DNA of 41,443 nt from a virus. This document shows positions 3,001 through 31,705 of the stretch, piece by piece (the first letter of the stretch is position 1; each line of letters opens with the position of its first letter). The stretch spans positions 1 to 41,443 of the IMG/VR virus record IMGVR_UViG_3300033156_000283; one strand, written 5' to 3'. Both the position numbers and the translations under genes were made by a program. Under the pieces are notes generated by a model. The model saw only the letters and a list, made by a program, of their open reading frames with translations, ran no database searches and was not told where the DNA came from.

Positions 3001-3045
3001 TCCTCGCAGTGCTTCTTGCCTCAGCTTGGATGGATCAAACGGCAT
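1..3045 (-). CDS. Giant ejection/internal virion protein, N-terminal part (continues at 41404)
   Basis: The frame opens at ATG 3045 (MPFDPSKLRQEAL) and has no stop down to base 1. In the circular molecule it continues in phase at 41404 and ends at 38186, giving about 2087 residues; this part supplies residues 1-1015. A segment at about residues 435-560 is rich in Glu, Pro and Ala, and residues about 575-815 are heavily charged heptad-like helix (long coiled coil). No lytic transglycosylase motif was found here. It is the last and largest gene after two other internal-protein candidates, and the start lies 7 bases after the stop of the preceding gene. Size, position and coiled-coil content fit phage internal/ejection proteins that form a DNA conduit across the envelope. 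The family is inferred and the open frame is seen directly. Confidence 0.85.
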   Translation of the reverse strand, partial: MPFDPSKLRQEALRGPGYATPVTAPIVPAAEDEEEKQRPWWDETLGRLSLFAPPYLTAPLLAVSPRARELWGTLATKPAETVERYVGWTGPVLGEYVRRGRAMLRGEEVPPFTWEREKEIIRQHMYPEKYGPAPPTLGAEISKSIYPHERRREEFQKAGWLGKLGVVAKSIGADIPGLIADLVTDPIVLGSFGIEIGAPAAARMARRAVRPAVSSAMRGAAEVYLTDAAGRALEVQAADRIQKAVTKAMERAVEELPAKPILDVGNLRAYHRSTTQAWRERIAGAIEGAAPNLAPEKVGELTQRVLDEYRRHLTPVVSYFGKPLIYAGRRTEPLLPETEAGVELFGGAMPRYTLTEAGVLAPEMRTVEELGIRNPALEQFVARQAPRVAERLEAAAKEVRPVALEAMKRQAEAMGAAARRRGLMEAIAAARAEVEAIEEQIRRIEEGTEEEAAPEEAPPIEAPVTEEVTPAAPEAPAIEEPVAPEEEEQPERQWFAAEATQYDIFGRPMRVYGREPEVRQRSLEEEGMAIPELPREGEVQIPGTEVPREVAGQPEVAPEGPSLEERIAAIREEMNRLSAEQKRLQEQEWRLRIQRQGASLEEAKQVIDPQIEAIREQYSQHRLRLLELDKQLKDLEEQAFLASVPEGMDVRVARAIRNYEREIAALERDLARIPERQAQLERQLQEARAGAERDEPGAHYMVQQLEQTLAELPREAARDRERIQTLRREIEQLQEKGLAHLDPVAYAMQQLPEPVRINPIPRTQELPQDLDELRQVLREARRAARHFRQPLIDRDKQLREELKKTQDKAQRAVLRDKRKTLREALYGPSRRQSVKQHPDYQKHKETRRWMLKEGFVPDNLLPTIWWRDPVRFWKDYDRYMETGEWPVVDGVKATEQDMEAMMVIAKNALSVPPEEDELHALYKEMQEEQWGEWAATAEAASMELEHFIGEAESELQSLQQELNGLIEEAQAAGASEAEIQAIREAYREPIEKLQENIRGMREDLEGREEEAEQEK

Positions 3046-3051
3046 AGCGCA

Positions 3052-4902
3052 TCACTTCACGTCAGCCAGCGGAACCCAGCCGGCAATGTTGGAACCACGC
3101 AACCGCACGGGCAACCAGCCCTGATATGGCGCACCCAACTGCACCAACTCTTGCCCTTTCTCTATCTTGGCCGCCGTCCGTTCTGTGCCATCATCGAAGC
3201 GCTTAATCGCCGTAGCCCGCCTCGCAACTACCCGTTGTGGCACGGCACCAGGCCGCCCCGTGGTACGCTGAAATGCATGCAGGTGCTTGAAGGTTGAAAC
3301 CGGCACCGGCTTTACAACCCTCTGCCCGTTCTCATTAGCGACGTACCACAGCTTGCCGTTGATTATGCCAAGCGCGTGCCCCATGTGCCCGTACCGTTCA
3401 CCGTTACGCCCAGGGAACTTCTCCCACACAAGCAAGGCACCAGGCGGTATGTCGTGCGGGTCGTCGCTCGTGATTTCACGATAACCGCGCTTTGGCAAAA
3501 CGTTGATGTAATCTTTAGCCGCACCCAAGCCCCACGGCTTGCCGGTCTCTACCGTCATGGCAGTGACGGCGCATCGGTTCGGCTCATACGGCACCTCAGG
3601 ATCCCAGTACCGATCAACGCCGGACGGGATGGGCACGTAGTCCGTGCCAACCCTTGCGTACCGATTACCTTGCTCGTCGCTTACAAGCGCAGGACCCTTT
3701 ACAGCAGGTTGCTGCGCCTGCGTTGTTCCGCTTGGTCCGGGCCTTCTTGGCCCTTGTTGAAGGGGACCACCCCCCGCCCGTTGCGCAGTTCCCTCGTATC
3801 TCATCGTGAATTCGCCCGGCCGCTCAGGCAACCCTTGATACTCGAAGATATGGCGCCGCTCCGGCGGCTCCTCAATTATGTACCGCTGAATAATCTCCCG
3901 TGGCGGCTCCGGTGGCAACGTGCCGTGCTCCCGGACATATTCCAGGGTGTCGAGCGCTACCTCCAAGTCCGTCAAGGCCTGCGTCAGCTTGGCGCGCAAC
4001 GTCGCCTCTTCAGTCGCGGCCCTCAGTGGCGCGGTCTTCCGCAGCCGATCCAGATCCAGCTTCTTTGCCTGTGCATTGATCTCCTGCAGGATGTTCTCCA
4101 GCTTTTGCGCCTCCTCCCGTAGCCCCAGAAGGTCCAGCTCTTTCGTCAACCGCTCCAACTTTAACGGGAACAGCTTCTTGTCCTGCTCGATCTGTTGCCT
4201 CGTTTGCTGAATCTGCAGGCGGGCAGCGTTAGTACGCAACTCGTGCTCACGCGCACGCCGCTGTTGTTCGGCCGCTTCTTGCGGCGTCATAGGCGGCGTC
4301 CAATATCGCACACCAGTCCGCGGGTCAAAGACGTACTGCGAACCGGCGGCCGGCAAGACCGCAGGCGCAAGCAGTTTAGCCAACTCCGGTCTTTCGGCAA
4401 TCTCTTGCGCGGTTAATGGGCGCGTAGGTGGCGTCGCCGTCAACGTTGGCCTTGTCGGCACCGGCCGCGGCGCGAAAATGGAACCCTCACGCGGCGTTAC
4501 AGGCACACTCACCAAGGGCGTCTGCCGCGCAGGCAACGGTTCGCGCATCTGTTCGGGAGAGAACAGGGGCGCAGGTGTAATCTCAGCCTGCCACGCCGCA
4601 CCAGGCACCAACTGTTGCGCTATTGCTCGTGCCGTCGGCGACGACGCATATGCGGCCGCCACCTGCGAAGGCAGGGCCGCCTCTGCCGCTCGCTGTTGCA
4701 CCTCCATGAGACGGGCAGGGTCCGTCATTCTGAGCCGCTCCGCCTGAAGCTCAAGACCCTTCCTCTGCAATTCCAACTGCTCTCGACGCAAGGCATTCTC
4801 AAACGCCTGCTGCTTCATCCGCTGAACCTGCAACTCGGCGTCCGCTTGTCCTTGGAAATAACCTTGTAGGGCCTGCAGTAGACCCTCTGCTAACGATGCC
4901 AT
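3052..4902 (-). CDS. Virion-associated peptidase/amidase: coiled coil, CHAP-like domain, SH3 tail
   Basis: 616 residues. Residues 1-75 and 210-330 are long charged helices. Residues 110-180 and 370-405 are Pro-rich linkers. Residues about 435-545 look like a CHAP or NlpC-type Cys-His hydrolase: Cys444 (PNRCAVTAMT), His506/His509 (YGHMGHALGI) and Asn524. Residues 557-616 resemble a bacterial SH3 domain ending in GWVPLADVK. Such a protein would cut peptidoglycan locally as DNA enters the cell. It lies in the internal-protein cluster, overlapping no gene and 7 bases before the giant gene, and far from the lysis cassette with its own NlpC-like enzyme. That position favours a virion component over an endolysin. 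Catalytic type is inferred from motif spacing. Confidence 0.75.
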   Translation of the reverse strand: MASLAEGLLQALQGYFQGQADAELQVQRMKQQAFENALRREQLELQRKGLELQAERLRMTDPARLMEVQQRAAEAALPSQVAAAYASSPTARAIAQQLVPGAAWQAEITPAPLFSPEQMREPLPARQTPLVSVPVTPREGSIFAPRPVPTRPTLTATPPTRPLTAQEIAERPELAKLLAPAVLPAAGSQYVFDPRTGVRYWTPPMTPQEAAEQQRRAREHELRTNAARLQIQQTRQQIEQDKKLFPLKLERLTKELDLLGLREEAQKLENILQEINAQAKKLDLDRLRKTAPLRAATEEATLRAKLTQALTDLEVALDTLEYVREHGTLPPEPPREIIQRYIIEEPPERRHIFEYQGLPERPGEFTMRYEGTAQRAGGGPLQQGPRRPGPSGTTQAQQPAVKGPALVSDEQGNRYARVGTDYVPIPSGVDRYWDPEVPYEPNRCAVTAMTVETGKPWGLGAAKDYINVLPKRGYREITSDDPHDIPPGALLVWEKFPGRNGERYGHMGHALGIINGKLWYVANENGQRVVKPVPVSTFKHLHAFQRTTGRPGAVPQRVVARRATAIKRFDDGTERTAAKIEKGQELVQLGAPYQGWLPVRLRGSNIAGWVPLADVK

Positions 4903-9321: not shown

Positions 9322-9975
9322 TTACTTCACCTTCACCTTCACGTCTGTAGGCCGCTCGTCGGCCGCTTCAGTGTTTGCGTACCGCGCATTCACGTGGTCA
9401 ACCTGCTGCCGAAACAAGGCGGCAAACCGCTCTGCCACGTCAAACATGCCCGCTTGCTCATAGCACCTACTTACAACGTAGTCCAGCAGAAGGTTATGTA
9501 AGCCCTCCGGCAAGGCAGGATCCACGGCATCGCCAACTGCAGGTGGCTTGCATACGTACCACAACGCAAACTTGTCGCTACCGCTTTGCGTCACCGTGCC
9601 AACCTTGAAGCTGATATTGCCGGCATGTATCTGATAGAACGGCGTAGTCTCCGACGGCACGATAACGCTACTGTCACGCATTACGTCAGTCAGCCTCACG
9701 TCCCATCGCACAGCCGGCACGCCCTTGTACTCCACGTACCTGTCACGCACGAAATCGCTTGGCAGAGCGTAGTCTGATGTGCCCGCCACCAGCAAGGTCT
9801 CGACAACCTTCGTCGAAGCCCACAGGGCACCGTCGTTAAGCACGTGCACCAGCACCCCCTGCGCTTCGTCTATGAAGCTGTCAAGTTCAGCATCTGCCCA
9901 GCGGACGCCTTGGAGATCGCCCACCCTGTGCCGAACCGCAATCCTCAATGCTTTTGTGACGTCACCTGCAGCCAT
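9322..9975 (-). CDS. Head-to-tail adaptor protein, paralogue 3
   Basis: 217 residues. The N-terminus reads GDVTKALRIAVRHRVGD with WADAELDSFIDEAQ, then ALPSDFVRDRYVEY, and near the end FALWYVCKPPAVGDAVDPALPEGLH and LLDYVVSRCYEQAG. All these blocks have counterparts in the two genes upstream (9976-10611 and the C-terminal half of 10611-11717). The fold expected is the helical gp4-like connector/adaptor that extends the portal ring in short-tailed phages. ATG 9975 directly follows the previous stop (TAAATG). The basic tail DVKVKVK is unusual. Confidence 0.7.
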   Translation of the reverse strand: MAAGDVTKALRIAVRHRVGDLQGVRWADAELDSFIDEAQGVLVHVLNDGALWASTKVVETLLVAGTSDYALPSDFVRDRYVEYKGVPAVRWDVRLTDVMRDSSVIVPSETTPFYQIHAGNISFKVGTVTQSGSDKFALWYVCKPPAVGDAVDPALPEGLHNLLLDYVVSRCYEQAGMFDVAERFAALFRQQVDHVNARYANTEAADERPTDVKVKVK

Positions 9976-10611
9976 TTAATCACCCGGCCGAATGTCATGC
10001 TCCAGACCCGGCACATACCGGCTTGCTACTGCCGCCATGCACCGCTGAAACTGCGTAAGCAACCTATCTGCCTCTGCCCACTCAGTGCGGGCCTCGCGAC
10101 AACGCATAACGGCAAAGTCCACCATAGCTTCGTGGTACGCCGAAGACAACACCGGGTCCACGGTATCCGAAAGCGCAGGCGGAACCTTCACGTACAACAC
10201 CTTGTACGCCGCTGTCGAAGAAGGATCGCCCTGTTGGACTATCAACCGCACGCCGCCCGCCGTGGCCGAATAGAAGATGAAATAGTACGGGTTGGTGGCC
10301 GAAGGCGTCAGGTAGTTAAGCAAGTCTGCCTCTGCCACCGACCAGGGCTTTGCCTCAATTTCGTCATCACCCACAAGCACCAAGCGTTCCCTCCAGAAGT
10401 CAGAGGGTAACGCCGCCTCCGACGCCGTCAGGTTACCCGTGGCCGTCGCCGTTGCGCCAGGCAACGCGGCATCAGGAAGCATTGCGATAATGGCACGCTG
10501 CGCTTCAGTCAGATAGCTATAGAGCGCATCATCGGTAAAGCCATATTCCGAGGCTTTACCCAGACGCTCACGTACCTTATCGCGTAGCGCTTGTGTTGTT
10601 TCCCCTGCCAT
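9976..10611 (-). CDS. Head-to-tail adaptor protein, paralogue 2
   Basis: 211 residues from ATG 10611, which overlaps the preceding stop (TGATG). It shares with its downstream neighbour the blocks ETTQALRDKVRERLGK, FTDDALYSYLTEAQRAII, ALPSDFWRERLVLVG and YVKVPPALSDTVDPVLSSAY plus MVDFAVMRCREAR. These match the pattern of gp4-like portal adaptors: two long helices plus a small beta domain. The tandem arrangement suggests stacked rings between portal and tail hub. Confidence 0.7.
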   Translation of the reverse strand: MAGETTQALRDKVRERLGKASEYGFTDDALYSYLTEAQRAIIAMLPDAALPGATATATGNLTASEAALPSDFWRERLVLVGDDEIEAKPWSVAEADLLNYLTPSATNPYYFIFYSATAGGVRLIVQQGDPSSTAAYKVLYVKVPPALSDTVDPVLSSAYHEAMVDFAVMRCREARTEWAEADRLLTQFQRCMAAVASRYVPGLEHDIRPGD

Positions 10612-11717
10612 CAAATTGCCTCGCTGTTTATGGTGTTAGGACCCGCACGGTCTTCTGCCGCTCGGTTCCTATCTGTCCGAAGTTGTGCAAGCACCTTCTG
10701 CTCCATCTGCGCCGCCGTCCGCAGGTCACCAAACTCTCTGCAGGCATACGCTATCGCCAAGTCAACGATTAGCTGATGTTGCGCCGCAGGGAAGCCAGGC
10801 TTATCGTCGTCGTTAGACATATTGTCGGGTTCCAGCACCGCGTACAACCGCACCGTCTCATTAGCGGTATCGGGTGCCGGGTACAACGCCAAGGCATCAC
10901 CATACCGCATCCAGTACTCGGGTTCGCCCGAAGTCGAAGACTGCGCCCGCTTGTCTATGTACTCGTCCAGGCGCATTTCCTTCAGCCGCGTCACGTTGCC
11001 GTCAGTGTCTTCATACTCTACTTCCAGCACATCGCGGACACCCGTCGGCAAGCTATACTCGTACACGTCAACCTGCGTCGAGACTTCATAGGTGCCGCGC
11101 GGCCACGCCAACTCAGCCAGTATCGCTTGATACGCCGTGTTGATCCACTGCTCAATGAGTTGATCCGTGACGCGGTAGCGCCTCGCACCGAACATCTCCG
11201 GCAATATCGCGCGAAGCATGCTCTTAAGCTCCTTGTACGTCAGGCCGGCAGCACCAGTGAACGGCGACGTAGGCAACGACCAGACGCCAGCAGTCAGCGT
11301 CCGCGTAGTGTACTCCCACACTTCCTGCGCCGTGGCGCCCTGGCCGTATTCCTCCGAGAAGACATACTGATCCCAACTCATGCCCTGGTAGTCACCGCTG
11401 GGGACCTCGTACACCATCAGGTACGTTCGTTCGACACCGCCGTCAGCCGCCGATTGATCCCACTGATATGAGTAACTTCCGTCGCCGTTGTCGGTCAACG
11501 CTTGCTTGTGTTCCGCACCCAACGAGCCGTAGTTTGCCACGGCGTCCCACTCTTGGGCCACGAAGTCGTACCAAGCATCATCACTTGTACGACGTATCGC
11601 CACGGTAGGAGACAGGCCAACTACCGGGTTATTGCTTGGCGTATCCTCGTCCAACACCACAAGTGTCAGCGTGACCGTGCTGCCTGGCTCTGCGCCTATG
11701 ACCTGCACCCGGACCAC
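10611..11717 (-). CDS. Head-to-tail adaptor protein, paralogue 1, with N-terminal beta domain
   Basis: 368 residues starting at GTG 11717 right after the upstream stop. Residues 1-115 are beta-rich and Ig-like (STVTLTLVVLDED). Residues about 155-368 carry the same adaptor pattern as the next two genes: LTYKELKSMLRAILPEMFG, RVTDQLIEQWINTAYQAIL, YSLPTGVRDVLEVEY, RLYAVLEPDNMSNDDDKPGFP and LIVDLAIAYACREFGD. It is therefore an adaptor fused to an extra N-terminal domain. The SD before the GTG is weak, so expression probably depends on coupling with the upstream gene. Confidence 0.65.
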   Translation of the reverse strand: MVRVQVIGAEPGSTVTLTLVVLDEDTPSNNPVVGLSPTVAIRRTSDDAWYDFVAQEWDAVANYGSLGAEHKQALTDNGDGSYSYQWDQSAADGGVERTYLMVYEVPSGDYQGMSWDQYVFSEEYGQGATAQEVWEYTTRTLTAGVWSLPTSPFTGAAGLTYKELKSMLRAILPEMFGARRYRVTDQLIEQWINTAYQAILAELAWPRGTYEVSTQVDVYEYSLPTGVRDVLEVEYEDTDGNVTRLKEMRLDEYIDKRAQSSTSGEPEYWMRYGDALALYPAPDTANETVRLYAVLEPDNMSNDDDKPGFPAAQHQLIVDLAIAYACREFGDLRTAAQMEQKVLAQLRTDRNRAAEDRAGPNTINSEAI

Positions 11718-14790: not shown

Positions 14791-14820
14791 GTGGGGCGGC
14801 CTGCGTGCGGGCCGCCCCAC
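14791..14820 (-). terminator. Strong hairpin between decoration candidate and fibre-like genes
   Basis: A perfect inverted repeat with 11-bp arms (GTGGGGCGGCC) and an 8-base loop lies just after the stop at 14826. No T-run follows on the minus strand, so it may be a leaky terminator or an mRNA-stabilising stem that keeps capsid mRNA abundant relative to downstream tail genes. Confidence 0.75.
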
Positions 14821-19196: not shown

Positions 19197-20817
19197 TCTG
19201 CAACATCTCCTCGTAGCTTCCCGGCGTTATCTCGCTCAACTTATACCCAACCGGCACGTCAGCTATGACAGCCGGCACCGGCCCCCGCGTCTCTTCTACC
19301 GCATTCGCATCTTCTCCCACATAACCATACTTCAGCGCCACTTCCGCTGCCCTGCACACCGCATCCAACTCGTCCGTATCCTTGCTGAACGGAAAGGAAG
19401 CCAATTGCTTTTCGTATTCACCGCCACGCAATTCATGCGCGTGTATCACCCGGCCGCGTTGGTACCGCGTAAGCAAAACTTGCCGTATTCGTGTCTCCTT
19501 CCCGCCACCCGTCAATTCTTCAATCATCGGATATGTACCGCGCTCTTCCGCTATTTCTTCAATATTCTGCCGCGTCGTATGCCCTATAGACCCGTACATC
19601 TCAACGCCCCAGGCTTCCACGCCTTCCTCTTGGCTTATATCAAACGCCATTTCCACGAATTCTGCTTCACGCGAAAAACCGCCCCAACTGCCAAGCACGT
19701 AAAGCCGCCTGTCAGCATCTATCCCCACCAAGCCAAGGCCAGGGTGGCTTGTGCCCGTACCAGACGCCGGATCAAGCCCCAAGTAAAGCGTCATAGGCGG
19801 CATGTCTTCCCGCGCCATATACCGCACCATGTTCATGTCAAACCGATCGTCGCCGCGCACCGACGTGTCAAGCATATATTGCAAAGCGCCAAACCGCGGA
19901 TCAACAACGCGCCGCATTTCACGCTGAAAACGCGCGTCATTCCAGTTTTCAGGGTCCACGTACACGCCGTTGTCTACAATCTCAATCCGCCCCGATTGAT
20001 TTATACGCGCGTAACCGCGCACCGGTTGCACGAACAAGTCAAGATCACGCGGATAATAGTGTTGAATAACGTATTGCCACACGTCATAATCCGCGTAGAA
20101 CGTGCCCCAAATAAGCAATTCATCAGTATTAATCGTCGGGAACAGCGCCCTAAACTTCGCACAAAGTTCTTCTTGCGCTTGCCGCGACAGGAAATTCGCA
20201 TCGTTCACCCAGTCGTCAATATCAATACCCGCAACGTGCCGCCCCGTTTGCGGTTGCGATACCGTCCGCAACTCAAACGTCGGGCCGCCCTTCGTCCGCC
20301 CGCGTATCGTCTTTTGCGTCTTATCCCAAGATCCCGCCGCCGGCGCCATGTACGGGTACAACCGCAAAAGCACAGGGTTCCGTTCGCAATGCCGCCCCAT
20401 CTCCTTGAACCGCGCTTCCCCAAGCTTCGCATCGCTGTAAATGTGAATGTGGTCGTACGTCTCCGGTTCTTGCACCGCGCGCCACAACGCACGCGCAAGC
20501 GACATCGTCGTCTTGAACGCACCCCTGTAATACGCATGAAATTGCGGCTTCTTCACATTAGTCAGCCGCTTGCACACTTCCCAATGAAATCCACCAGGCC
20601 CCGAAAGCCTGTCATACCCCAACACAAACATCGTGAAGAAGTGCAAGCTGCGCTTCCCAAGCGCCGCATACACTGCAACCTCTTCACTCGTCAGGTTCCA
20701 AGGCTCCCTCGTCAGCCTCTCCAGATCCCACTTCCAATTCGGCCATTTTCTCTTCAGCAGTTTCTCGTAATACTCTTTCGATTTCTGGTATCCCGGTCGC
20801 GGCGCCTTCCGCTTCAA
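19171..20817 (-). CDS. terL: Terminase large subunit (packaging ATPase-nuclease)
   Basis: Up to 548 residues. A variant Walker A is RGAFKTT (residues about 98-104), Walker B is GIDIDDW (residues about 198-203), and the RNase H-like nuclease begins with YLGLDPASGTG in the C-terminal half. The enzyme pumps DNA into the prohead through the portal and cuts it. The 20817 start is a TTG with a weak SD, and it overlaps the upstream gene by 134 bases. A later start (for example the GTG near residue 49) would lose the conserved-looking FFTMFVLGYDRLSGPGG approach only in part. The start is therefore uncertain and the family is not. Confidence 0.85.
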   Translation of the reverse strand: MKRKAPRPGYQKSKEYYEKLLKRKWPNWKWDLERLTREPWNLTSEEVAVYAALGKRSLHFFTMFVLGYDRLSGPGGFHWEVCKRLTNVKKPQFHAYYRGAFKTTMSLARALWRAVQEPETYDHIHIYSDAKLGEARFKEMGRHCERNPVLLRLYPYMAPAAGSWDKTQKTIRGRTKGGPTFELRTVSQPQTGRHVAGIDIDDWVNDANFLSRQAQEELCAKFRALFPTINTDELLIWGTFYADYDVWQYVIQHYYPRDLDLFVQPVRGYARINQSGRIEIVDNGVYVDPENWNDARFQREMRRVVDPRFGALQYMLDTSVRGDDRFDMNMVRYMAREDMPPMTLYLGLDPASGTGTSHPGLGLVGIDADRRLYVLGSWGGFSREAEFVEMAFDISQEEGVEAWGVEMYGSIGHTTRQNIEEIAEERGTYPMIEELTGGGKETRIRQVLLTRYQRGRVIHAHELRGGEYEKQLASFPFSKDTDELDAVCRAAEVALKYGYVGEDANAVEETRGPVPAVIADVPVGYKLSEITPGSYEEMLQNENTWAAW

Positions 20818-20989
20818 CAGACTTCACCGCCCTTGTCTCCGCATCTCTCTGCTGAAAAATTATCTTCATCAAGTACACCTTGTCCCGCCACCTCACATCC
20901 TCAGACGCAAGCGCCTGCGTCGCAAGCTTCCACGCTTGCTCATACAACTCCGCACTCATCTTCATGTACTTCTGCCTCTCAGGATCCAT
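20684..20989 (-). CDS. terS: Terminase small subunit candidate
   Basis: 101 residues from ATG 20989 (MDPERQKYMKMSAELYEQ), with GGAGG 7 bases upstream. It is helical and charged, with an acidic C-terminus (EVGSGEADEGALEPDE) as in many small terminases. It is the first gene of the structural operon, directly before terL and beside the long non-coding region where a packaging site would be expected. No clear HTH is visible, so the call rests on position, size and composition. The last 134 bases also encode the N-terminus of TerL in another frame. Confidence 0.5.
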   Translation of the reverse strand: MDPERQKYMKMSAELYEQAWKLATQALASEDVRWRDKVYLMKIIFQQRDAETRAVKSVEAEGAATGIPEIERVLRETAEEKMAELEVGSGEADEGALEPDE

Positions 20990-21023
20990 CACCAACCCTC
21001 CCCTCTTATGTTAACCTCCTACT

Positions 21024-21072
21024 TAGTAACTACTACTTATAGTTAAGCACTTAGTTACTATATAAGCACTAG
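21024..21072. repeat. AT-rich repeat cluster in the terminase leader
   Basis: TAGTAACTA (21024-21032) and TAGTTACTA (21052-21060) form a 9-bp inverted repeat. AAGCACTTA (21045-21053) and AAGCACTAG (21064-21072) are near-direct repeats. AAGCACTTA occurs again at 29830-29838 among the repeats inside the replication gene. The cluster lies in the 5' leader of the structural operon, between promoter and small terminase, where it could bind a regulator or the replication initiator. Confidence 0.55.
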
Positions 21073-21169
21073 CTTAATATAGCAGGAGGGGCCAGCCAAC
21101 ACTCAGACCCCAGCTAATCCCCTTTCTCTATTGTCTCGGTCGGGCGGTCTGACCCCACCTGCACTAACA

Positions 21170-21198
21170 GCTTTACCACGTTACTGCGCTCCTGTCAA
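21170..21198 (-). promoter_or_regulatory. Candidate promoter of the structural operon
   Basis: On the minus strand TTGACA (complement of 21193-21198) is followed after 17 bases by TAAAGC (complement of 21170-21175) within CGTGGTAAAGC. The -35 is perfect and the -10 is weak, but the sequence shares the TTGACAG start and GTGGTA element with the promoters at 17359 and 34831. Transcription would start about 180 bases before the small terminase gene. Confidence 0.5.
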
Positions 21199-21565
21199 GC
21201 TACGAATGCCCGCAGACGGCCCTTTTCCCCAAAATTTTGCAATTTTTTTATTTTGATCGTGGGCAAACTAAGACGGTGGTGGAATGGAGGTGGGATTGGG
21301 ATTGGAAGTCCCCCCCGCCCCCGCGGGCACGCCCGCACGCGCGCGAAAGAGCCTCTATATGCTATATAGTGCTATATACTACTACGCGCACGCGCGCGCG
21401 ACTAGGAGTAATTACTACGAGGAGGCTACTGCAACTACGCGCGCACACGAGGGCCGCCTGGTGCCCAAGCCCGCTTGGTGGCCGACCGCCACGCCAGCAG
21501 CTTGAAAATCGGCATCTACTTCGCTTTTTGGCGTCTTTCACCCAACCCCGCCGAAATGCCGCCTA

Positions 21566-21599
21566 TCTTGTACGCATTTCATACGAAATGCGTACAAGA
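21566..21599. repeat. 34-bp palindrome, 15-bp perfect arms
   Basis: TCTTGTACGCATTTC (21566-21580) is the exact reverse complement of 21585-21599, with a 4-base centre (ATAC). No T-run follows on either strand, so it is not an ordinary terminator. A dimeric regulator site, recombination or partition site, packaging signal or cruciform are possible. It is the longest perfect inverted repeat noticed in the window. Confidence 0.85.
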
Positions 21600-21748
21600 C
21601 CCCTGTAGGCTGCCCATCAGGCCATCCAGGCCCCACAGGCCCGCTGCGCCCAGCACTACCCCAGGCCCGCCCCGCAGATCCGCCCACCCGGACGCTCAGC
21701 TTGCCCCTGCAGGCCCACCAAGCCCCCATCGGCTCCCCATCGCCCGCC

Positions 21749-21792
21749 CACGCGCGCACGCGTATATGCACACGCGCACGCATACGCGCATG
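21749..21792. other. 44-bp strictly alternating pyrimidine-purine tract (Z-DNA-prone)
   Basis: Every base from 21749 to 21792 alternates pyrimidine and purine, mostly CG, CA and TG steps with a short TATAT centre. A shorter tract of the same kind (17 bases) lies at 21384-21400. Such DNA can flip to the left-handed form under negative supercoiling, for example between divergent promoters, which is where it lies. Confidence 0.75.
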
Positions 21793-22096
21793 GAGTTCGG
21801 GCCGCCCATACCTGCCCCGCCGGCCCCCGGCTCACATCACCAGCTAGCCGCCGGCTCCCCGGCCCACCAGCTAACCTGCCGGCCGGCTCAAGGCATCTTG
21901 ACGAATGCCACCGGTGGCAGGTCCCGCATGCCCGCTTGCCCCCAGGTCCCACAGGCTATCTGCCTACATAGCTATATGCACTGCTTAATGCCACCCTCAC
22001 CCCCCTATAGTCCCCCCTCTCCCTCCGCTGGCTGGCTTGAGGATACTTTGAGCATGCTTTGCGCTGAGCTTGGGAGGAATTGCCCGCCCGGCGTGG

Positions 22097-22187
22097 TAAT
22101 ATATAGCCTGGAGGCCGCGAGAAAAAAATTTTGAAAAAAGCGGAACCTTTCCAGGCCCCCGGACGTCTAATACTCTGGAGGCCGCGA
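22097..22187 (+). promoter_or_regulatory. Plus-operon promoter/operator region with duplicated 13-bp box
   Basis: CTGGAGGCCGCGA occurs at 22108-22120 and 22175-22187. Each copy lies just after a -10-like hexamer: TAATAT (22097-22102, in CGTGGTAATAT) and TAATAC (22168-22173). An A/T tract lies between (22121-22138). No good -35 is seen for either, so the promoters may rely on the extended -10 or an activator. The boxes would cover the transcription starts, as operators do. The first gene of the operon begins at 22212. Confidence 0.5.
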
Positions 22188-22211
22188 AAACACCAACGAG
22201 GAGGGAACCCA

Positions 22212-22433
22212 ATGAACCGCGTAACCCCAGAAGCCAAGGCCCGTAAGCTGATTTTGCTTGGCCGAGCCAGCTACATTGACCCCGCAGCCATCGGCAACCG
22301 CAAGGTCGAGGACTTGGCCGGCCAGATCGCCGACGCCATCATGGCGTTGGCCGACTATGCCGAGGCTGGCAATCCGCACGCCGTGGACATTCTGCGCGCA
22401 ATCGGGGTCGAGCTTGACCCTGACACCCAATAA
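22212..22433 (+). CDS. Small acidic protein, first gene of plus operon, unknown
   Basis: 73 residues from ATG 22212, with GAGGAGG 8 bases upstream; an in-frame TTG at 22131 has no SD and lies in the regulatory region. The product is helical: residues 1-20 basic, then VEDLAGQIADAIMALADYAE and AVDILRAIGVELDPD. Not recognised. It opens a run of twelve small genes that probably act early in infection. Confidence 0.75.
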   Translation: MNRVTPEAKARKLILLGRASYIDPAAIGNRKVEDLAGQIADAIMALADYAEAGNPHAVDILRAIGVELDPDTQ

Positions 22434-22453
22434 CCCACGAGGAGGGACACACC

Positions 22454-22684
22454 ATGACCACCGCCATGCTTCCCCTAACCGAACGAGAGGAGAGGCGGCT
22501 GGCCGAGGTCGTAATCAGTCACCGCTTGCGGCTGTACTCACCCGGCTGGCGCCTCGAGACCGCCCCTGTAGTGTGGTGTATCGTGGACGCCAACGGCATC
22601 ACCATCGCCACCGGGACGCACAAGAGGCTGATTGACTGGGTAGACGGATTTCGCTGTGGCGTATTGTCCGCCCAAGAGGGATAA
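22454..22684 (+). CDS. Small plus-operon protein, unknown
   Basis: 76 residues. A basic helical N-terminus (TEREERRLAEVVISHRLRLY) is followed by a beta-rich C-terminus (APVVWCIVDANGITIATGTHKRLIDW). GAGGAGGG precedes the ATG after a 20-base gap from the previous gene. No family was recognised. Confidence 0.75.
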   Translation: MTTAMLPLTEREERRLAEVVISHRLRLYSPGWRLETAPVVWCIVDANGITIATGTHKRLIDWVDGFRCGVLSAQEG

Positions 22685-22740
22685 CGAGGGGCAGGCGCCC
22701 GCCTGCCCCACACCATCACCATCACGAGGAGGGAGAAAAC

Positions 22741-23175
22741 ATGACGTTTGACGCCATGAAGGAGCTGACGCCCAAAGAGGCAATCCAGGCTATTATCACG
22801 GAGGCGGCCCGCAAGGGTACTGACGCATTGATCCCTGCGGCCCTACTGCGGGCCGCTTGCTACCCCCCACGGCCCGAGCCGTCACCAGGCTGGGGCCGGG
22901 AGCCAGTGCCGCGTGACTTCCCCATCAAGTTTCAGATGCACGACGGCCGCAAGGCCGAACTGACGCGCAACAAGCTTATCGTCGAAGGAGAGGTCTTGGG
23001 TCCCGACGACCTAGTGCCGCCGCCACCAGGTGCGCCATTGCCGTGGCTGACGGCACCCGTGAAGGACCTGGTGCTGGACGCGGCCGAACGCCGCCGCAAG
23101 CTGACGGAACCCGACAGAATAATCGAGCTGCCCGATTTGTGGGCTGAGCGCCTGCGGGGCTGGCCCGAAGAATAG
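22741..23175 (+). CDS. Plus-operon protein with Pro-rich middle, unknown
   Basis: 144 residues. The N-terminal 45 residues are helical (TPKEAIQAIITEAARKG; IPAALLRAACYPP). A Pro-rich stretch, a short beta segment (IKFQMHDGRKAELTRNKLIVEGEVLG) and a second Pro-rich stretch follow, then a charged helical tail. SD GAGGAGGG. Its end is followed by a strong hairpin and a change to more AT-rich genes. Function unknown. Confidence 0.75.
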   Translation: MTFDAMKELTPKEAIQAIITEAARKGTDALIPAALLRAACYPPRPEPSPGWGREPVPRDFPIKFQMHDGRKAELTRNKLIVEGEVLGPDDLVPPPPGAPLPWLTAPVKDLVLDAAERRRKLTEPDRIIELPDLWAERLRGWPEE

Positions 23176-23184
23176 ACTGAGTTT

Positions 23185-23212
23185 GGGGCCGTAGGTTCGG
23201 GCCTGCGGCCCC
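23185..23212. terminator. Intercistronic hairpin in plus operon
   Basis: GGGGCCG (23185-23191) pairs with CGGCCCC (23206-23212), extended by a G-T pair and AGG/CCT, for a stem of about 11 pairs and a 6-base loop. It lies after the stop at 23175 and before the SD of the next gene, with no T-run. Partial termination or mRNA processing is possible. Confidence 0.55.
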
Positions 23213-23243
23213 CCCAAAAACCCCAAAGGAGGAGGGCTAAACA

Positions 23244-23783
23244 ATGAGAGAAACGGTACAACTGATTCACGCACTCGAATTTAATGATTGGCAAGCATTG
23301 CTGAACGACGAAACAATAAAAACAGTAAAAGACTGCTATGACCGCGGCATGATTCTTGAGGCTTACGTTGACCTGCATGATACAGGTATGTGGCCCGTGG
23401 TAACCGCCTGCGTAGAGTTAATTGCACTGGACGTGTGGGAAGGCTACCATAAGGAAGTTGAGGGAGGAGTGCTTGCTAGTTCTCAGCTAGTGCTGGCCTG
23501 CAAGGCTAACCTAGAAACCCTCGATATCAACTCTCCAACACTGGAGATGCTAAGGAACATGACCGTTGCAGATACTATTGTAATGGAGGATAGTTACTAC
23601 CCTCCAGTAAAACGAATGATAGACTACGTAGGCGTCGGTATTATATGCCCGTACAGGGCTAATGGTGAGGACGCGCTTACCGCCGTGAAAGGATGGTTGT
23701 CCTCACTAATAGAAAGTGACTGGTTTCTGGAAATAGTGGATAATTGGGCTATCAAGGTGACGGAAACTATAGAAGACGAATAG
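23244..23783 (+). CDS. Plus-operon acidic protein, more AT-rich DNA, unknown
   Basis: 179 residues, acidic and mostly helical, with two hydrophobic stretches too short or polar for clear membrane segments (VVTACVELIALDVWEG; MIDYVGVGIICPY). The C-terminal part (GWLSSLIESDWFLEIVDNWAI) recalls the ending of the two downstream paralogues, but only loosely. Codons use more A and T (ATA, AAT, GAA, TTA) than the rest of the genome, suggesting recent acquisition together with the next gene. SD GGAGGAGGG. Confidence 0.75.
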   Translation: MRETVQLIHALEFNDWQALLNDETIKTVKDCYDRGMILEAYVDLHDTGMWPVVTACVELIALDVWEGYHKEVEGGVLASSQLVLACKANLETLDINSPTLEMLRNMTVADTIVMEDSYYPPVKRMIDYVGVGIICPYRANGEDALTAVKGWLSSLIESDWFLEIVDNWAIKVTETIEDE

Positions 23784-23827
23784 AAAAAGGAACACACAAT
23801 AGGAAAACCTGAAAGGAGTGTCTACCG

Positions 23828-24073
23828 ATGAGGTTAACCGCTAATCAAGAAGAAATAGTCATACCGTGGATAACATTCCTGCGTGACAACATCGGCGACG
23901 ATTGGCACATTGAAGAGGATACAGACGAACTGCGCCTCGTGCGCATACACCAAGACTTGGGCGGTGTACGAGAGGTAATATGCACGTCGCGCCGTCGGCC
24001 GACATTCGTTGAATATGTACGGCTATTTGGATATGGTGTCGCGTGTGCCCTTCACGATAAGGCAAAAGAGTGA
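23828..24073 (+). CDS. Small plus-operon protein, unknown
   Basis: 81 residues, acidic in the middle (GDDWHIEEDTDELRLVRI), with a basic turn (TSRRRPTFVEYVRLFGYG). SD AAAGGAGTG. Base composition is AT-richer than the flanking genes, like its upstream neighbour. The stop overlaps a GTG (24070) that opens a frame through the structured spacer into the next gene. Not recognised. Confidence 0.75.
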   Translation: MRLTANQEEIVIPWITFLRDNIGDDWHIEEDTDELRLVRIHQDLGGVREVICTSRRRPTFVEYVRLFGYGVACALHDKAKE

Positions 24074-24246
24074 GCAAAGAGGACATCGAGAAGGTGGCCC
24101 GCCTGCGGGGGGTTACGGGGCTACCGCTAACGGTACAGTGGGCGTACGGCGGGCCGGGAGCAGGCTCAGGCCGAAGCACAATAACGGAGTTCGGGGGGCG
24201 CGGGCTACCCTGTGCCCCCCCACCATACCAAACAGGAGGGATAACA
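24074..24246 (+). other. Structured spacer in plus operon (possible regulatory RNA)
   Basis: This 173-base gap can fold extensively. GGCCCGCC (24096-24103) pairs with GGCGGGCC (24148-24155) and encloses TACCG/CGGTA (24122-24135). A 12-pair stem runs from GGGGGGC at 24193 to GCCCCCC ending at 24220, with a 4-base loop (24205-24208) and two G-U pairs. The next gene's SD follows 14 bases later. A GTG at 24070 keeps an open frame through the spacer, so it could instead code a 59-residue N-terminal extension of the next protein; its Gly/Pro-rich latter half argues against that. Confidence 0.5.
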
Positions 24247-24747
24247 ATGAGAATAGCAACCGAGGAAAAAATTGGCCTGTTGGAAGAAAAAGCCCGCGAG
24301 GCCATCTCGGAGTGGCTTCGCCAGATATGGGAGGAGCCCCCGGATATAAACTGGGATGCATTGCTGGGCACCCTTCTGGATGTTTTCGCCCCGCCAGGAC
24401 GGCGGGACGATGCGGATGACTTCTGGGATAGGTGCTTCTGGGGCTGCTGGCAAATGTGGGATCGGTTGGAACTGTCGATCCTGCATTGGGATGATCACCG
24501 CCTGATCCTGCGGGCGGGCTGGGACTTGGCACCTGACGAGGCCCCCGAGCCCTTTTATGACGGGGTAGACTACCTCGTCTACAACCGGGCCACGCGCGAT
24601 GTGATGTACATCGCCGAGGCCGAGGCCGCGGGTTTGCGGCCCCGGGCGTGGGTCGGTAGGATGGGGCTGGACGCCCGGCCGCAGGAGGCTATCGGAGCTT
24701 GGCTGGCGCGTTGCGCCGGTCGTTGGGCGGATTGGGTGGAAGAATAA
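24247..24747 (+). CDS. Trp-rich plus-operon protein, paralogue A, unknown
   Basis: 166 residues from ATG 24247, with AGGAGGG upstream. It has about fifteen Trp residues, is acidic, and begins with a helix (EKAREAISEWLRQIWEE). The blocks DYLVYNRATRDVMYIAE and EAIGAWLARCAGRWADWVEE correspond to EVLIYHAPTRTIARFAG and DIVAAWLAASAEGWSCCVED of the next gene, so the two are diverged duplicates. No known family recognised. An alternative GTG start at 24070 would add 59 residues. Confidence 0.75.
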   Translation: MRIATEEKIGLLEEKAREAISEWLRQIWEEPPDINWDALLGTLLDVFAPPGRRDDADDFWDRCFWGCWQMWDRLELSILHWDDHRLILRAGWDLAPDEAPEPFYDGVDYLVYNRATRDVMYIAEAEAAGLRPRAWVGRMGLDARPQEAIGAWLARCAGRWADWVEE

Positions 24748-24768
24748 CCACAATCACAAGGAGGGAGA

Positions 24769-25284
24769 ATGATGGGCGCACGGCTGGAGAAGGACACTTT
24801 AGAACAGATTACGGGGTGGCTTCGGCGGTTGTGGCCCGAAGCGGAGGTGTGGGGCTGGGCAGTGGAGGAATTGCTGCAGCAGGTGTTCTGTGAATACTCA
24901 TCGCCAAGCGGATATATGGAGCGGGTGGCGGCGGCGGTGCCCGAAATGGCAGGCCGCCTGGAGAGCCTGGAGCAGGTGCTGGACGACGAGCACGGTTTGT
25001 GCCACATTTGGCAGGTCACGTGGGGCTTGGGACGCGATGTGGGCGATCACCAGATAGTAGGTAAAGAAGTCCTGATCTATCACGCGCCCACCAGAACGAT
25101 AGCACGGTTCGCGGGTGATACTGACGATGGTATACCAATATGGTACCAAGACAAACTGCCATCTACCCAGCAGTTTCACGTGCACGACATCGTGGCGGCG
25201 TGGCTGGCCGCTTCGGCAGAGGGCTGGTCATGCTGCGTAGAAGACGACGAACCCGAAGAAGACGAGGACGAGTTGGCAAGCTAA
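24769..25284 (+). CDS. Trp-rich plus-operon protein, paralogue B, unknown
   Basis: 171 residues, starting at ATG 24769 or the adjacent ATG 24772, after AAGGAGGG. Helical N-terminus (LEQITGWLRRLWPEAEVWG), central QVTWGLGRDVGDHQIVGKEV, then the two blocks shared with the upstream paralogue and a very acidic tail (DDEPEEDEDELAS). Acidic, DNA-mimic-like composition is common in phage inhibitors of host defences, but that is only a suggestion here. Function unknown. Confidence 0.75.
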   Translation: MMGARLEKDTLEQITGWLRRLWPEAEVWGWAVEELLQQVFCEYSSPSGYMERVAAAVPEMAGRLESLEQVLDDEHGLCHIWQVTWGLGRDVGDHQIVGKEVLIYHAPTRTIARFAGDTDDGIPIWYQDKLPSTQQFHVHDIVAAWLAASAEGWSCCVEDDEPEEDEDELAS

Positions 25285-25306
25285 TGACCCGAGAGGAGGG
25301 CTAACA

Positions 25307-25690
25307 ATGCAGGAGTACGAGCGTTTTGCGGATGCATTTCGGGAGGATGGGCTACGGAGGGCAGCGGAGGGGTTGCAGGAGTGGTTTGACCAGGCTTTCA
25401 TCACGCACCTGGGGCACGAGGAGGTGGACGGCCCGCATGGCCGACGGGAGCACTTTCAGCTACGGATGCTACCGTTAGAGGATGGTGCCGAGGAGCGGAT
25501 CGTCAACCTGTGGCTGGTGCCACCGGGTGACGATGCGGCCGATATCGAGGGCCAGGGGCATTTTGTGCCTATGACACCGGAGCGTGACCGGGAGGCCGTG
25601 CTGTTTCATTGGCTGCGGTACCTGGGATGTGTGCACGACAACCTGATGTACCTGCTATGTGTGGGCGAGCCCGCACCTGCAGGTACATGA
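25307..25690 (+). CDS. Acidic plus-operon protein, unknown
   Basis: 127 residues. Helical N-terminus (FREDGLRRAAEGLQEWFDQAF), an acidic and His-containing middle (GHEEVDGPHGRREHF), a beta-like segment (IVNLWLVPPGDDAADIEG) and a helical end (AVLFHWLRYLGCVHDNLMYL). SD GAGAGGAGGG. The overall order resembles the two preceding paralogues but without clear block matches. Not recognised. Confidence 0.7.
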   Translation: MQEYERFADAFREDGLRRAAEGLQEWFDQAFITHLGHEEVDGPHGRREHFQLRMLPLEDGAEERIVNLWLVPPGDDAADIEGQGHFVPMTPERDREAVLFHWLRYLGCVHDNLMYLLCVGEPAPAGT

Positions 25691-25726
25691 CGAGCGAGGA
25701 GAGAAAAAGAAACAGGAGGGATTGTG

Positions 25727-25912
25727 ATGCCAAAGCCAAGGCAGATCTACGTCGTGCAGTACAAGGGGCAACAGTTTCGGTTTCAGGTGGACAGGATTGC
25801 CCGCGTGCGAAGTGGCGCCGTGCTTGCGTTCGGCAGGCGCTTGGACAACGGCCGGGAGATGGGGATCCCGGTGAGCAAATATGCCACCTGGCAGAAGACA
25901 TGGAGGAGGTGA
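25727..25912 (+). CDS. Small basic plus-operon protein, unknown
   Basis: 61 residues from ATG 25727, with CAGGAGGG upstream. Basic and beta-rich: RQIYVVQYKGQQFRFQVDRI, then SGAVLAFGRRLDNGREMG. It might be a small SH3-like or RNA/DNA-binding barrel. It is the only clearly basic product among these genes. Function unknown. Confidence 0.7.
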   Translation: MPKPRQIYVVQYKGQQFRFQVDRIARVRSGAVLAFGRRLDNGREMGIPVSKYATWQKTWRR

Positions 25913-25917
25913 TAAGC

Positions 25918-26340
25918 ATGAAGCCTGTTGGCCCTCCGCGTGAGGTAGTCAACGACCGTGCTGTTCGGGCGTTGTTGGAGCGTGGCTGGTACGTAGGGGT
26001 GTGGCAAGGGGGCGACAGCACGGCGCGGCTGTATGTCGTCGAGATACGGGATCGGCGGCGGGAATTGGTGGCAACGGCGTACCTGGTGGAGGTGGCACTG
26101 AAGGCAGAGGCGCCACCGGTTGAAGCTGCGGCGTGGGTGATTGTGCCACCAGATTGGCTGCAGTCGTTGCAGATCCCCGTGGCGGGGCGTAGGGAGCGAC
26201 TGCTGGACGATTTCATCGTGGCGTTGTGTGGGGCGTGGGCGGAGGACGAGGAGATCAACGGGTGCGAACTTGCCGGTCGGCTGGCGGCGGCATTCCCGCA
26301 GGCTATCAGCACGGCCGGCACAAAGAGAAGGGAGGGTTGA
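25918..26340 (+). CDS. Plus-operon protein, unknown
   Basis: 140 residues from ATG 25918, with GGAGGAGGTG upstream, 5 bases after the previous stop. Residues 10-65 are alpha/beta (AVRALLERGWYVGVWQGGD; RLYVVEIRDRRRELVATAYL). Residues 75-125 are helical (PPDWLQSLQIPVAGRRERLL; VALCGAWAEDEEINGCEL). The WYVGVWQGG and ATAYLV strands suggest a compact alpha/beta domain. Not recognised. Confidence 0.75.
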   Translation: MKPVGPPREVVNDRAVRALLERGWYVGVWQGGDSTARLYVVEIRDRRRELVATAYLVEVALKAEAPPVEAAAWVIVPPDWLQSLQIPVAGRRERLLDDFIVALCGAWAEDEEINGCELAGRLAAAFPQAISTAGTKRREG

Positions 26341-26342
26341 CG

Positions 26343-26792
26343 ATGGTAGTGGAACACGTCTACCGAGTGGAGGCTGACGCCGAGGGTGGGCGCTATTCCA
26401 TAGAGCGGCTCATCAAGGCGTTGGCCGACGACTGGGGAATGGTGGCTGACACGCAGGGTGCAGTCCGCGGGGCGCTGAAGGACGGGCTAACCGAAGGGGT
26501 AGCGATGGATATTTACGCCTGTAAGATTGCAGGTCCTTTGAGCGAAGTCGTGCAGGCCACCATGAAGCGGACGGAGCCTGCGGCCGACGGTGAAGAGCCG
26601 GACACATGGTGCACAGGCACGCTGTGGGTACGGCCGCACGATACCGGGATGGTGGTGGGCATCATGATGTGGCGCGATACATCAGCAGGCGACGACGCAG
26701 ACGCTTATCGGCTCATATCAGCGGGCGATACGCCTTGGGGATCTGTGTTGGCCGCTCAGCTGGTGGTAACGGCACATAAGACCCACTTGTGA
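26343..26792 (+). CDS. Plus-operon protein, unknown
   Basis: 149 residues, 2 bases after the previous stop, with SD GGGAGGG overlapping that gene's end. Helical N-terminal half (YSIERLIKALADDWGMVAD; LSEVVQATMKRTEPAADG) and beta-rich C-terminal half (CTGTLWVRPHDTGMVVGIMM), ending LAAQLVVTAHKTHL. Not recognised. Confidence 0.75.
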   Translation: MVVEHVYRVEADAEGGRYSIERLIKALADDWGMVADTQGAVRGALKDGLTEGVAMDIYACKIAGPLSEVVQATMKRTEPAADGEEPDTWCTGTLWVRPHDTGMVVGIMMWRDTSAGDDADAYRLISAGDTPWGSVLAAQLVVTAHKTHL

Positions 26793-26806
26793 AAGGAGGC
26801 TGTTTC

Positions 26807-27244
26807 ATGCGCTTCGTAACGGAACAACTGGAAAACCTGGACGGGATACACAGGGTGTTGGTGAAAGGCACAACGACGGACGTCCTGATAAGCCATTGCC
26901 CAGGGGGGCAGTGGTGGATTGCTTGGCACGGCGAGTTGAAGGTGCAGGTAGATGAGGGCTACGTTGCCTTGGCTTTGGCTGAACACCTAGCGGGCAACGT
27001 AATAGAGTACGTTGTCGAGCCTTACCCTTCAGCTACTGAGGAGTTTATCAAGCAGGGCCATGTCATGGAACACGACCTTGCGACAATCAAGCCTGTGCCA
27101 GAGGGCGAGGGCTATGTAGTGGACATTCCGGCTGTAAACTTGAGCCTGCGGGTGGAGAGCTTCGGCACCTGCCGGCAGGTCATTTGTGCCATCGTGCACG
27201 CGATCCAAGATGGGTTGTTTCGGGTTGATACACCCGACGAGTGA
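26807..27244 (+). CDS. Last plus-operon protein, unknown
   Basis: 145 residues from ATG 26807, with AAAGGAGG upstream. Mixed alpha/beta: GIHRVLVKGTTTDVLISHC, WWIAWHGELKVQVDEGYVAL, VVDIPAVNLSLRVESFG and a C-terminal helix (CRQVICAIVHAIQDGLF). A hairpin terminator follows 18 bases after the stop. Not recognised. Confidence 0.75.
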   Translation: MRFVTEQLENLDGIHRVLVKGTTTDVLISHCPGGQWWIAWHGELKVQVDEGYVALALAEHLAGNVIEYVVEPYPSATEEFIKQGHVMEHDLATIKPVPEGEGYVVDIPAVNLSLRVESFGTCRQVICAIVHAIQDGLFRVDTPDE

Positions 27245-27521
27245 TCCCCACGGGTAAAGAACGACAAGGCCCGCGGCTGGGTAGACCGCGGGCCTTGTCT
27301 TGTGCCACGGGTGGGGGCTTCATAGCGGAACAGAGCATCTCGTTTCCCCCGGTTAAGTTGTTAGGTGTGTTGGTGCCCCTATTCACCCCCCTTTTTGGCG
27401 ATTTTGCGATAAACGGCCATTAAGGCCCCTCTGAGCGTTCGGAACCCCGATCGGGTACTTACCCCTTCGGAGGGGGCGGGTCGCGCAAAATAGCCCGCTT
27501 CTCGTCCATTCTACAAGCATC
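27245..27521. other. Convergent intergenic region
   Basis: This gap separates the ends of the plus operon and the minus replication operon. Besides the 14-bp hairpin it holds a perfect 10-bp palindrome CCCGATCGGG (27446-27455) and CCCCT/AGGGG at 27462-27475, which could form a small terminator hairpin for the minus operon. No gene is seen. Confidence 0.6.
27263..27299. terminator. Terminator hairpin ending the plus operon
   Basis: GACAAGGCCCGCGG (27263-27276) is exactly complementary to 27286-27299, a 14-bp perfect stem with a 9-base loop. The plus strand continues TTGTG, a weak T-run. It lies between converging operons and could stop transcription from both sides. Confidence 0.85.
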
Positions 27522-30448: not shown

Positions 30449-30590
30449 CGTTGGACACCTCCTGCTCACACTCAAACTTTGCTTCTTCGGCCATCCTCCA
30501 TATCTGCCACGTGCGCTTGCGGGCACCAAGCAGTATCGCTTGGCTAAAGCGGCCGGTGATCATTCGGCTTTCGCTGTCATTCTTCGTCAT
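30351..30590 (-). CDS. 79-residue protein coupled to methyltransferase gene, unknown
   Basis: The ATG overlaps the methyltransferase stop (ATGA) and GGTGGAGG lies 7 bases upstream inside that gene. Residues 1-45 look natural: charged, with GRFSQAILLGARKRTWQIW and an acidic AEEAKFECEQE. The last 32 residues, which share DNA with the membrane micro-protein, are Cys/Ser/Asp-rich and look less constrained. The product may be a small DNA-binding or regulatory protein. Not recognised. Confidence 0.5.
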   Translation of the reverse strand: MTKNDSESRMITGRFSQAILLGARKRTWQIWRMAEEAKFECEQEVSNDDNSLVCDWHTADWLCNSGDLGGCNSHSRRPH

Positions 30591-31705
30591 GGCGACGCCT
30601 CCACGGGCATCAGCCGAAAACGACGTTGCCCGTATCGGATGTTCGGCGTAACTGATTCGTAAGTCTTTCTCGCAACCAACATCAGTAGCGCCTCAAAAAT
30701 TATCAGAGCAAACCGCGGAGGTACCGCCATGCCAATCTGCCTTCTAACACTCTGTCGCGTGCCCTCAAACACGAACCAATCCGGGAACGTCTGCAGGCGT
30801 GCAAGTTCGCGGTTGCTGAGAGCGCGTGGCTGAGACCAGTGGTAAACATGGGTGCCTCCTCCGCCGCTTCCCGTTATAGTGTACGCGGGCACGTCAGGAC
30901 ACAGCCGCCGATATATTTGACTTATTTTCGCTCCTTTAACATTTAGGCTTAGGTGTGCCGGTATACGAGCCGTGAAGGCATTCTCTCCAGGCCTAATGTA
31001 CTTCAAACGCTCTGCAACACGGGGGGACTGCTCTGTGAACTCATGATTGGGCGCATTGGAGGGAATGGGCGGTTCCTCAATCGCCTTGCGTGCCGAGTTG
31101 TCAATGTTGGCGTATGGCGCCGGCGAAGGAACCTTAAATTTTGTGCCTAAGTCATTCCTGACGCCCACAATGACCACTCTATGCCTGATCTGTGGCACGC
31201 CGTACTCCTCCATCTTGTACAGGTGGGTTGTCAGCGTGTATCCAGCATCGGCGAAGTCTTCCAGTATCACCTGAAGCGCCTCGCCGTTGTTCGCCTTAAT
31301 CAGCCCCTTTACGTTCTCGGCCACGAAGAAAGCCGGCTGGAAATAGGTGAGCGCCTTGGTACAATAAGTATAAAGCGCACCGTATTCCCCCTTGAGGCCC
31401 TTCCGTCCTGCTCGTATGACGCTGAAATCGTTGCAGGGGAAACCGAAGGCCAAAACGTCAACCTCCGATATATCGCGTAACCGCCGGAAATCCAGCTTCC
31501 TGATGTCCTCACATATCACCGCCTCCGGCCTGTCAGGTACTAGGTTCCTGCGATACGTTTGACAAGCGTCTTTATCCCAGTCCGTTGCCCAGGCTATCTC
31601 ATAACTGTAGCTATGCCCACGCCAATGCAACCGAGCCGACAATGCCCCGAGGCCGATACCGCCACAGCCACAGAATAGTTCGCCAAGCTTGAAAGGCTCA
31701 CCCAT
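30587..31705 (-). CDS. DNA (cytosine-5) methyltransferase
   Basis: 372 residues with the ordered motifs of C5 methyltransferases: motif I LGELFCGCGGIGLGA (residues 7-21), catalytic PC at residues 90-91 in FGFPCNDFS, ENV at 130-132, QIRHR at 172-176, and C-terminal RELARLQTFPD and QIGMAVPP. The enzyme transfers a methyl group from S-adenosylmethionine to cytosine C5 in a specific site. The target domain lies between about residues 200 and 290 and its site cannot be read. With no restriction enzyme gene nearby it is probably an orphan enzyme protecting phage DNA or marking the origin next door. Its start overlaps the 3D-domain gene. Confidence 0.9.
   Translation of the reverse strand: MGEPFKLGELFCGCGGIGLGALSARLHWRGHSYSYEIAWATDWDKDACQTYRRNLVPDRPEAVICEDIRKLDFRRLRDISEVDVLAFGFPCNDFSVIRAGRKGLKGEYGALYTYCTKALTYFQPAFFVAENVKGLIKANNGEALQVILEDFADAGYTLTTHLYKMEEYGVPQIRHRVVIVGVRNDLGTKFKVPSPAPYANIDNSARKAIEEPPIPSNAPNHEFTEQSPRVAERLKYIRPGENAFTARIPAHLSLNVKGAKISQIYRRLCPDVPAYTITGSGGGGTHVYHWSQPRALSNRELARLQTFPDWFVFEGTRQSVRRQIGMAVPPRFALIIFEALLMLVARKTYESVTPNIRYGQRRFRLMPVEASP

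Follow-up and report, generated by a model that had tools for sequence, protein, structure and literature searches.

Orphan operons of early type are very numerous in phages, and new anti-defence proteins and host inhibitors have previously been discovered in early gene sets of this kind. A described case is the early unit PE1 of SPP1, a 44-kb tailed phage, in which ORFs 46-53 are short, dispensable and of unknown function, and for which the authors propose a role in host takeover (PMC6316719). Here we describe a plus-strand operon of twelve small genes, g1 to g12, which, like PE1, would be one early polycistronic unit of short ORFs. The two differ in that several SPP1 products have transmembrane segments, whereas transmembrane-like stretches were found in 0 of the 12 operon products (they are present in the three small minus-strand proteins compared). 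No sequence relation between the operon and the SPP1 unit was found, SPP1 itself having had no separate comparison. On balance, we consider it probable that the operon is a single early accessory transcription unit of a tailed phage, encoding small soluble proteins that act on the host. It would then add one more case to the well-known class of phage early accessory operons, a real finding but of an ordinary kind.

The window, by which we mean the whole stretch of DNA analysed, is one entire virus record of 41,443 bases. Because 39 identical bases are common to both ends and a minus-strand reading frame continues over the joined ends, the record most likely represents a complete phage genome of about 41.4 kb, assembled as a circle. 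All recognisable genes lie on the minus strand, except for the twelve at 22212-27244. The minus strand encodes the terminase large subunit, the portal, the major head protein and an internal virion protein, as well as a C5 methyltransferase, a RecT/Bet-like annealing protein, a Cas4-type exonuclease, a RuvC-like resolvase, an O-like replication protein, a CHAP-domain protein and a DUF4406 protein. By its position and coding score, the minus-strand gene at 20684-20989 is likely to be that of the terminase small subunit (TerS). No integrase or lysogeny repressor was recognised among the genes examined.

The operon genes were evaluated with a codon-usage model trained on the long minus-strand genes. 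Genome-wide, 133 plus-strand ORFs with a length of 60 aa or more were scored; just 11 of them had a coding score above that of their antisense frames, every one within the operon, in agreement with the preliminary description, in which this was the only plus-strand block of the genome. The score was positive in the correct frame for 11 of the 12 operon genes and about zero for g2, which is called on the basis of its Shine-Dalgarno sequence and its fit within the operon. Long antisense ORFs inside the block were rejected as non-coding by the same score. An alternative g6 start at the upstream GTG 24070 was also rejected, as the extension scores non-coding (-0.12) and is absent from g7, leaving 24247 as the best start. 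All twelve genes begin with ATG (Table 1), and each ATG has AGGAGG, AAGGAG or GGGAGGG ~4-11 nt upstream. The strong Shine-Dalgarno sequences noted in the preliminary description are thus near-consensus in 12 of 12 genes, but they are only modestly stronger than in the remaining genome when the minus-strand starts are chosen fairly. The compact spacing reported there was confirmed, with intergenic gaps of 2-173 nt, nine of the 11 being shorter than 60 nt. From this layout we infer that the twelve genes are co-transcribed as one unit with its own signals, the promoter being putative.

Table 1. Coordinates of the operon genes and of the associated sequence features
Feature	Coordinates	Strand	Properties
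Divergent control region, TerS (minus) / g1 (plus)	20990..22211		non-coding; 1222 nt, longest gap in the genome; no gene-like frame on either strand
Perfect inverted repeat	21566..21599		34 nt, 15-bp arms, 4-nt centre; z -9.2
Leader/promoter-like repeat, copy 1	22103..22123	+	ATAGCCTGGAGGCCGCGAGAA; repeat family D4
Leader/promoter-like repeat, copy 2	22170..22190	+	ATACTCTGGAGGCCGCGAAAA; repeat family D4
g1	22212..22433	+	73 aa, pI 4.9, orphan
g2	22454..22684	+	76 aa, orphan; lowest coding score among the twelve
GC-rich hairpin after g2	22686..22711	+	no U-tract; exceeds shuffles, fraction 0.003 (uncorrected for number of gaps)
g3	22741..23175	+	144 aa, orphan
GC-rich hairpin after g3, left edge of low-GC segment	23185..23212	+	no U-tract; shuffle fraction 0.04 (uncorrected for number of gaps)
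g4	23244..23783	+	179 aa, net charge -20, GC 46%
g5	23828..24073	+	81 aa, GC 50%
GC-rich stem-loop in g5-g6 gap, right of low-GC segment	24190..24221	+	approximate ends, G-U pairs included
g6	24247..24747	+	166 aa, 7.8% Trp, net charge -15; g7 paralogue
g7	24772..25284	+	170 aa, 5.3% Trp, net charge -23; g6 paralogue
g8	25307..25690	+	127 aa, net charge -14, orphan
g9	25727..25912	+	61 aa, pI 11.7, sole basic product
g10	25918..26340	+	140 aa, orphan
g11	26343..26792	+	149 aa, orphan
g12	26807..27244	+	145 aa, orphan
Strong terminator-like stem-loop, common to operon and convergent minus-strand unit	27263..27299		z -4.5 plus, -6.2 minus

The operon had also been credited with a control region of its own. 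There is indeed an upstream region and an end signal (Table 1), but a sigma-70 scan of the upstream region yielded no clear promoter. The two 21-nt leader copies directly 5' of g1 have CTGGAGGCCGCGA(G/A)AA in common and could serve as tandem promoters or as sites for a regulator. The perfect inverted repeat farther upstream is a possible regulator site or cruciform, and no second copy of its arm was found in the genome. The size of this repeat resembles that of a recombinase site; no recombinase was recognised among the genes examined.

The preliminary description presented most of the products as acidic and Trp-rich, and all of them as uncharacterised, with no resemblance to replication, structure or lysis proteins. 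Their acidity is evident, with a pI below 5.5 in 10 of 12 products, compared with 17 of 37 minus-strand proteins (Mann-Whitney p = 0.03). Tryptophan enrichment holds for the products taken as a sum (3.6% vs 2.2%, p = 0.0016), but g6 and g7 carry the excess; when these two are left out, p = 0.22. The strongly basic g9 is a possible nucleic-acid binder. Nothing above chance was obtained for any product in Pfam, PHROGs, NCBIfam or PADLOC, nor was a homologue found among PDB sequences, in 72,556 plasmids or in 50,697 phage records, where there were two matches at E 0.7. The lack of characterised relatives thus stands, and the profile searches proposed with the preliminary description revealed no match to a structural or metabolic family. 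We regard as noise a cyanophage structural protein matched across g8 and g9 (E 0.7), a cyclic bacteriocin model matched by g2 (E 0.006, far under the cut-off), and weak Pfam/PHROG matches of g7 to PspB and of g8 to PAS_4; every Rfam match fell far under the gathering score. Viral contigs scanned with g7, g6 plus g7, g12 or the doubled leader motif yielded no relative, and genome contigs scanned with g4 or the portal yielded none either; single-protein scans of this kind reach close relatives only. No toxin or antitoxin family was matched by any operon product. Likewise, no known anti-defence protein was matched by sequence in Pfam, NCBIfam, PHROGs or the PDB, libraries which cover only some anti-defence families; PADLOC is a list of defence rather than anti-defence proteins, and its blank says little on the latter. 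Missing homologues are, in any case, no evidence of function.

Judged by their sequences, g6 and g7 are tandem paralogues derived from one tandem duplication. They align by BLASTP with E 9.5e-7 over 160 columns and form the single clear outlier among 190 pairs in a shuffle test (p 2.8e-6). A suspected paralogy of g2 and g5, 30% identical in a forced alignment, was rejected, this pair not being among the outliers of the same test. A model of g6 built from the two-sequence alignment (pLDDT 70, pTM 0.60) predicts three helices, five strands and a final helix. Structure searches with this model gave no convincing match, the best values being E 0.18 (PDB) and 0.04 (viral models) with Foldseek and Z 4.8 with VIA-align, a blank that does not prove a new fold. 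In being small, soluble and negatively charged, g7 resembles the anti-restriction proteins that act as DNA mimics, such as T7 Ocr: 34 of its 170 residues are acidic and 11 basic, the corresponding numbers for g6 being 34 and 19 of 166. Ocr has 116 aa and 6 basic residues, and its residue counts give a charge density of about -0.24 per residue, clearly stronger than the net -0.14 of g7 (PMC4872106). Further differences are that no sequence match was found and that the g6 model is of a mixed alpha/beta type without a good fold match. Going by negative charge, the most specific function that we would guess at for g7, g6 and g4 is that of a DNA-mimic inhibitor, but all three fall well short of Ocr in charge density.

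The second distinctive part of the operon is g4-g5, which has a GC content of 47%, 4 SD lower than the genome mean of 58% (SD 2.8), and constitutes the lowest-GC 830-nt window in the genome; the remaining ten operon genes have no such shift. GC-rich stem-loops stand on both sides of the segment, one in the g3-g4 gap and one in the g5-g6 gap. The latter was not reached by the strict hairpin scan, and the gap as a whole is not above shuffles (z -0.06). Since no U-tract stands behind any of the three gap hairpins (g2-g3, g3-g4 and g5-g6), these are more likely to be mRNA stabilising or processing elements than terminators. A low-GC segment of two genes, bracketed by hairpins inside a unit of higher GC, recalls the phage morons. 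Unlike morons, the segment has no recognised promoter of its own, none being apparent between the left hairpin and g4. Its flanking stem-loops lack U-tracts. The composition suggests that the operon grew in a mosaic, moron-like fashion, although the GC shift by itself does not prove that g4-g5 was inserted. A single-sequence model of g4 is all-helical and of low confidence (pLDDT 55), too poor for a fold search.

Searches with the portal and terminase found relatives of the virus at about 30-39% identity, plus weaker ones. Operon homologues were detected in 0 of eight distantly related virus records searched whole, and the fetched loci of relatives gave no significant match to the operon products. 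Most of these records are fragments and eight are few, so this absence is a weak hint that the operon products might be poorly conserved even among the relatives of the virus. The largest close relative, a 41,253-nt record comprising loci L016, L017 and L018, has in L016/L018 a terminase-divergent arm with Rad52-like, primase-helicase-like, nuclease and other DNA-metabolism genes, as read from their translations. As that arm holds replication genes, the position of the operon corresponds to the early arm of the relative, and the operon plausibly occupies an early position. Early expression would be in keeping with the arrangement of the operon as a divergent unit that has ends of its own, and the analogy with this arm lends it some slight weight; the replication genes of the present genome are on the minus strand and outside the operon, so early timing is argued by analogy only.

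If the operon is an early accessory unit, transcription would start within the upstream control region early after DNA entry, and the products would bind host proteins and thereby inhibit or redirect them. Their action would come at the onset of infection, as host shut-off, redirected host machinery or counter-defence, and the hairpins after g2, g3 and g5 would modulate or shield parts of the mRNA, besides possibly marking points of cassette addition. No homologue, fold or motif tying any product to a host target was found; the anti-defence or host-takeover role suggested in the preliminary description is reasonable as a starting assumption and is our best guess, but the sequences gave no positive evidence for it. 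That the operon is specifically an anti-defence island, with several products each blocking one bacterial immune system, is a narrower proposal that we hold to be possible but rather doubtful. It accords with the grouping of small orphans, soluble and acidic, in a single unit that seems to have been assembled from cassettes, and with the tendency of first-entering regions to gather anti-defence genes, as these cluster in the leading region of plasmids (PMC11541004); against it, the library and PDB searches matched no known anti-defence protein. Our confidence in this proposal overlaps with that in the early accessory unit, because the former is a special case of the latter. A bolder form, in which an anti-defence or takeover island consists entirely of new families, g6/g7 founds an inhibitor family duplicated for two host targets, and the hairpin-bracketed stretches are exchange slots, strikes us as unlikely.

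Two other explanations were weighed. The operon might be an accessory unit of moron type which helps the infected cell or opposes competing phages through superinfection exclusion or toxin-antitoxin functions, with its own signals and independent of the lytic clock. The upstream region, the end signal and the hairpin-bracketed low-GC g4-g5 would suit such a unit, but there is neither a recognised integrase or lysogeny repressor among the genes examined nor a toxin/antitoxin family match, and the products are devoid of the transmembrane segments that are usual in superinfection-exclusion proteins; we therefore judge it improbable. Far less credible still is that the operon encodes late proteins, made from the opposite strand, with an auxiliary virion, scaffold or assembly role. 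The operon does adjoin the terminase genes, but the head and packaging genes are on the minus strand and no structural PHROG was matched, the cyanophage match of g8-g9 being noise. Should the twelve genes indeed be early, the operon would offer a compact protein set from a phage lineage that is deeply divergent. An experimenter could begin with the duplicated pair g6/g7 or with the g4-g5 segment between its hairpins, g6/g7 being the most testable part.

Several observations concern the remainder of the genome and its relatives. Among recorded phages, the portal finds no match and the terminase a single one, in an Arthronema virus at 21% identity. In contrast to these two proteins, which are almost without relatives there, the C5 methyltransferase (30587-31705) is about 60% identical to that of a human-faecal phage contig and 33% identical to those of Thermus phages P23-45/P74-26. 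A related terminase of 819 aa (L004:167-2626) matches that of the window except for a break of about 290 residues, which looks like an intein or a comparable insertion. In the closest relative, L010, a DNA methyltransferase-like gene (2747-3469) lies between the terminase and portal genes, a place where the window has none. The adjacent virion genes 9322-9975 and 9976-10614 are tandem paralogues (BLASTP E 3e-30), both with counterparts in L010, and a third virion gene, 10611-11717, is weakly related to them. Finally, a GC-rich hairpin of 11 pairs (14791-14820) directly follows the major head protein gene and the small gene behind it.
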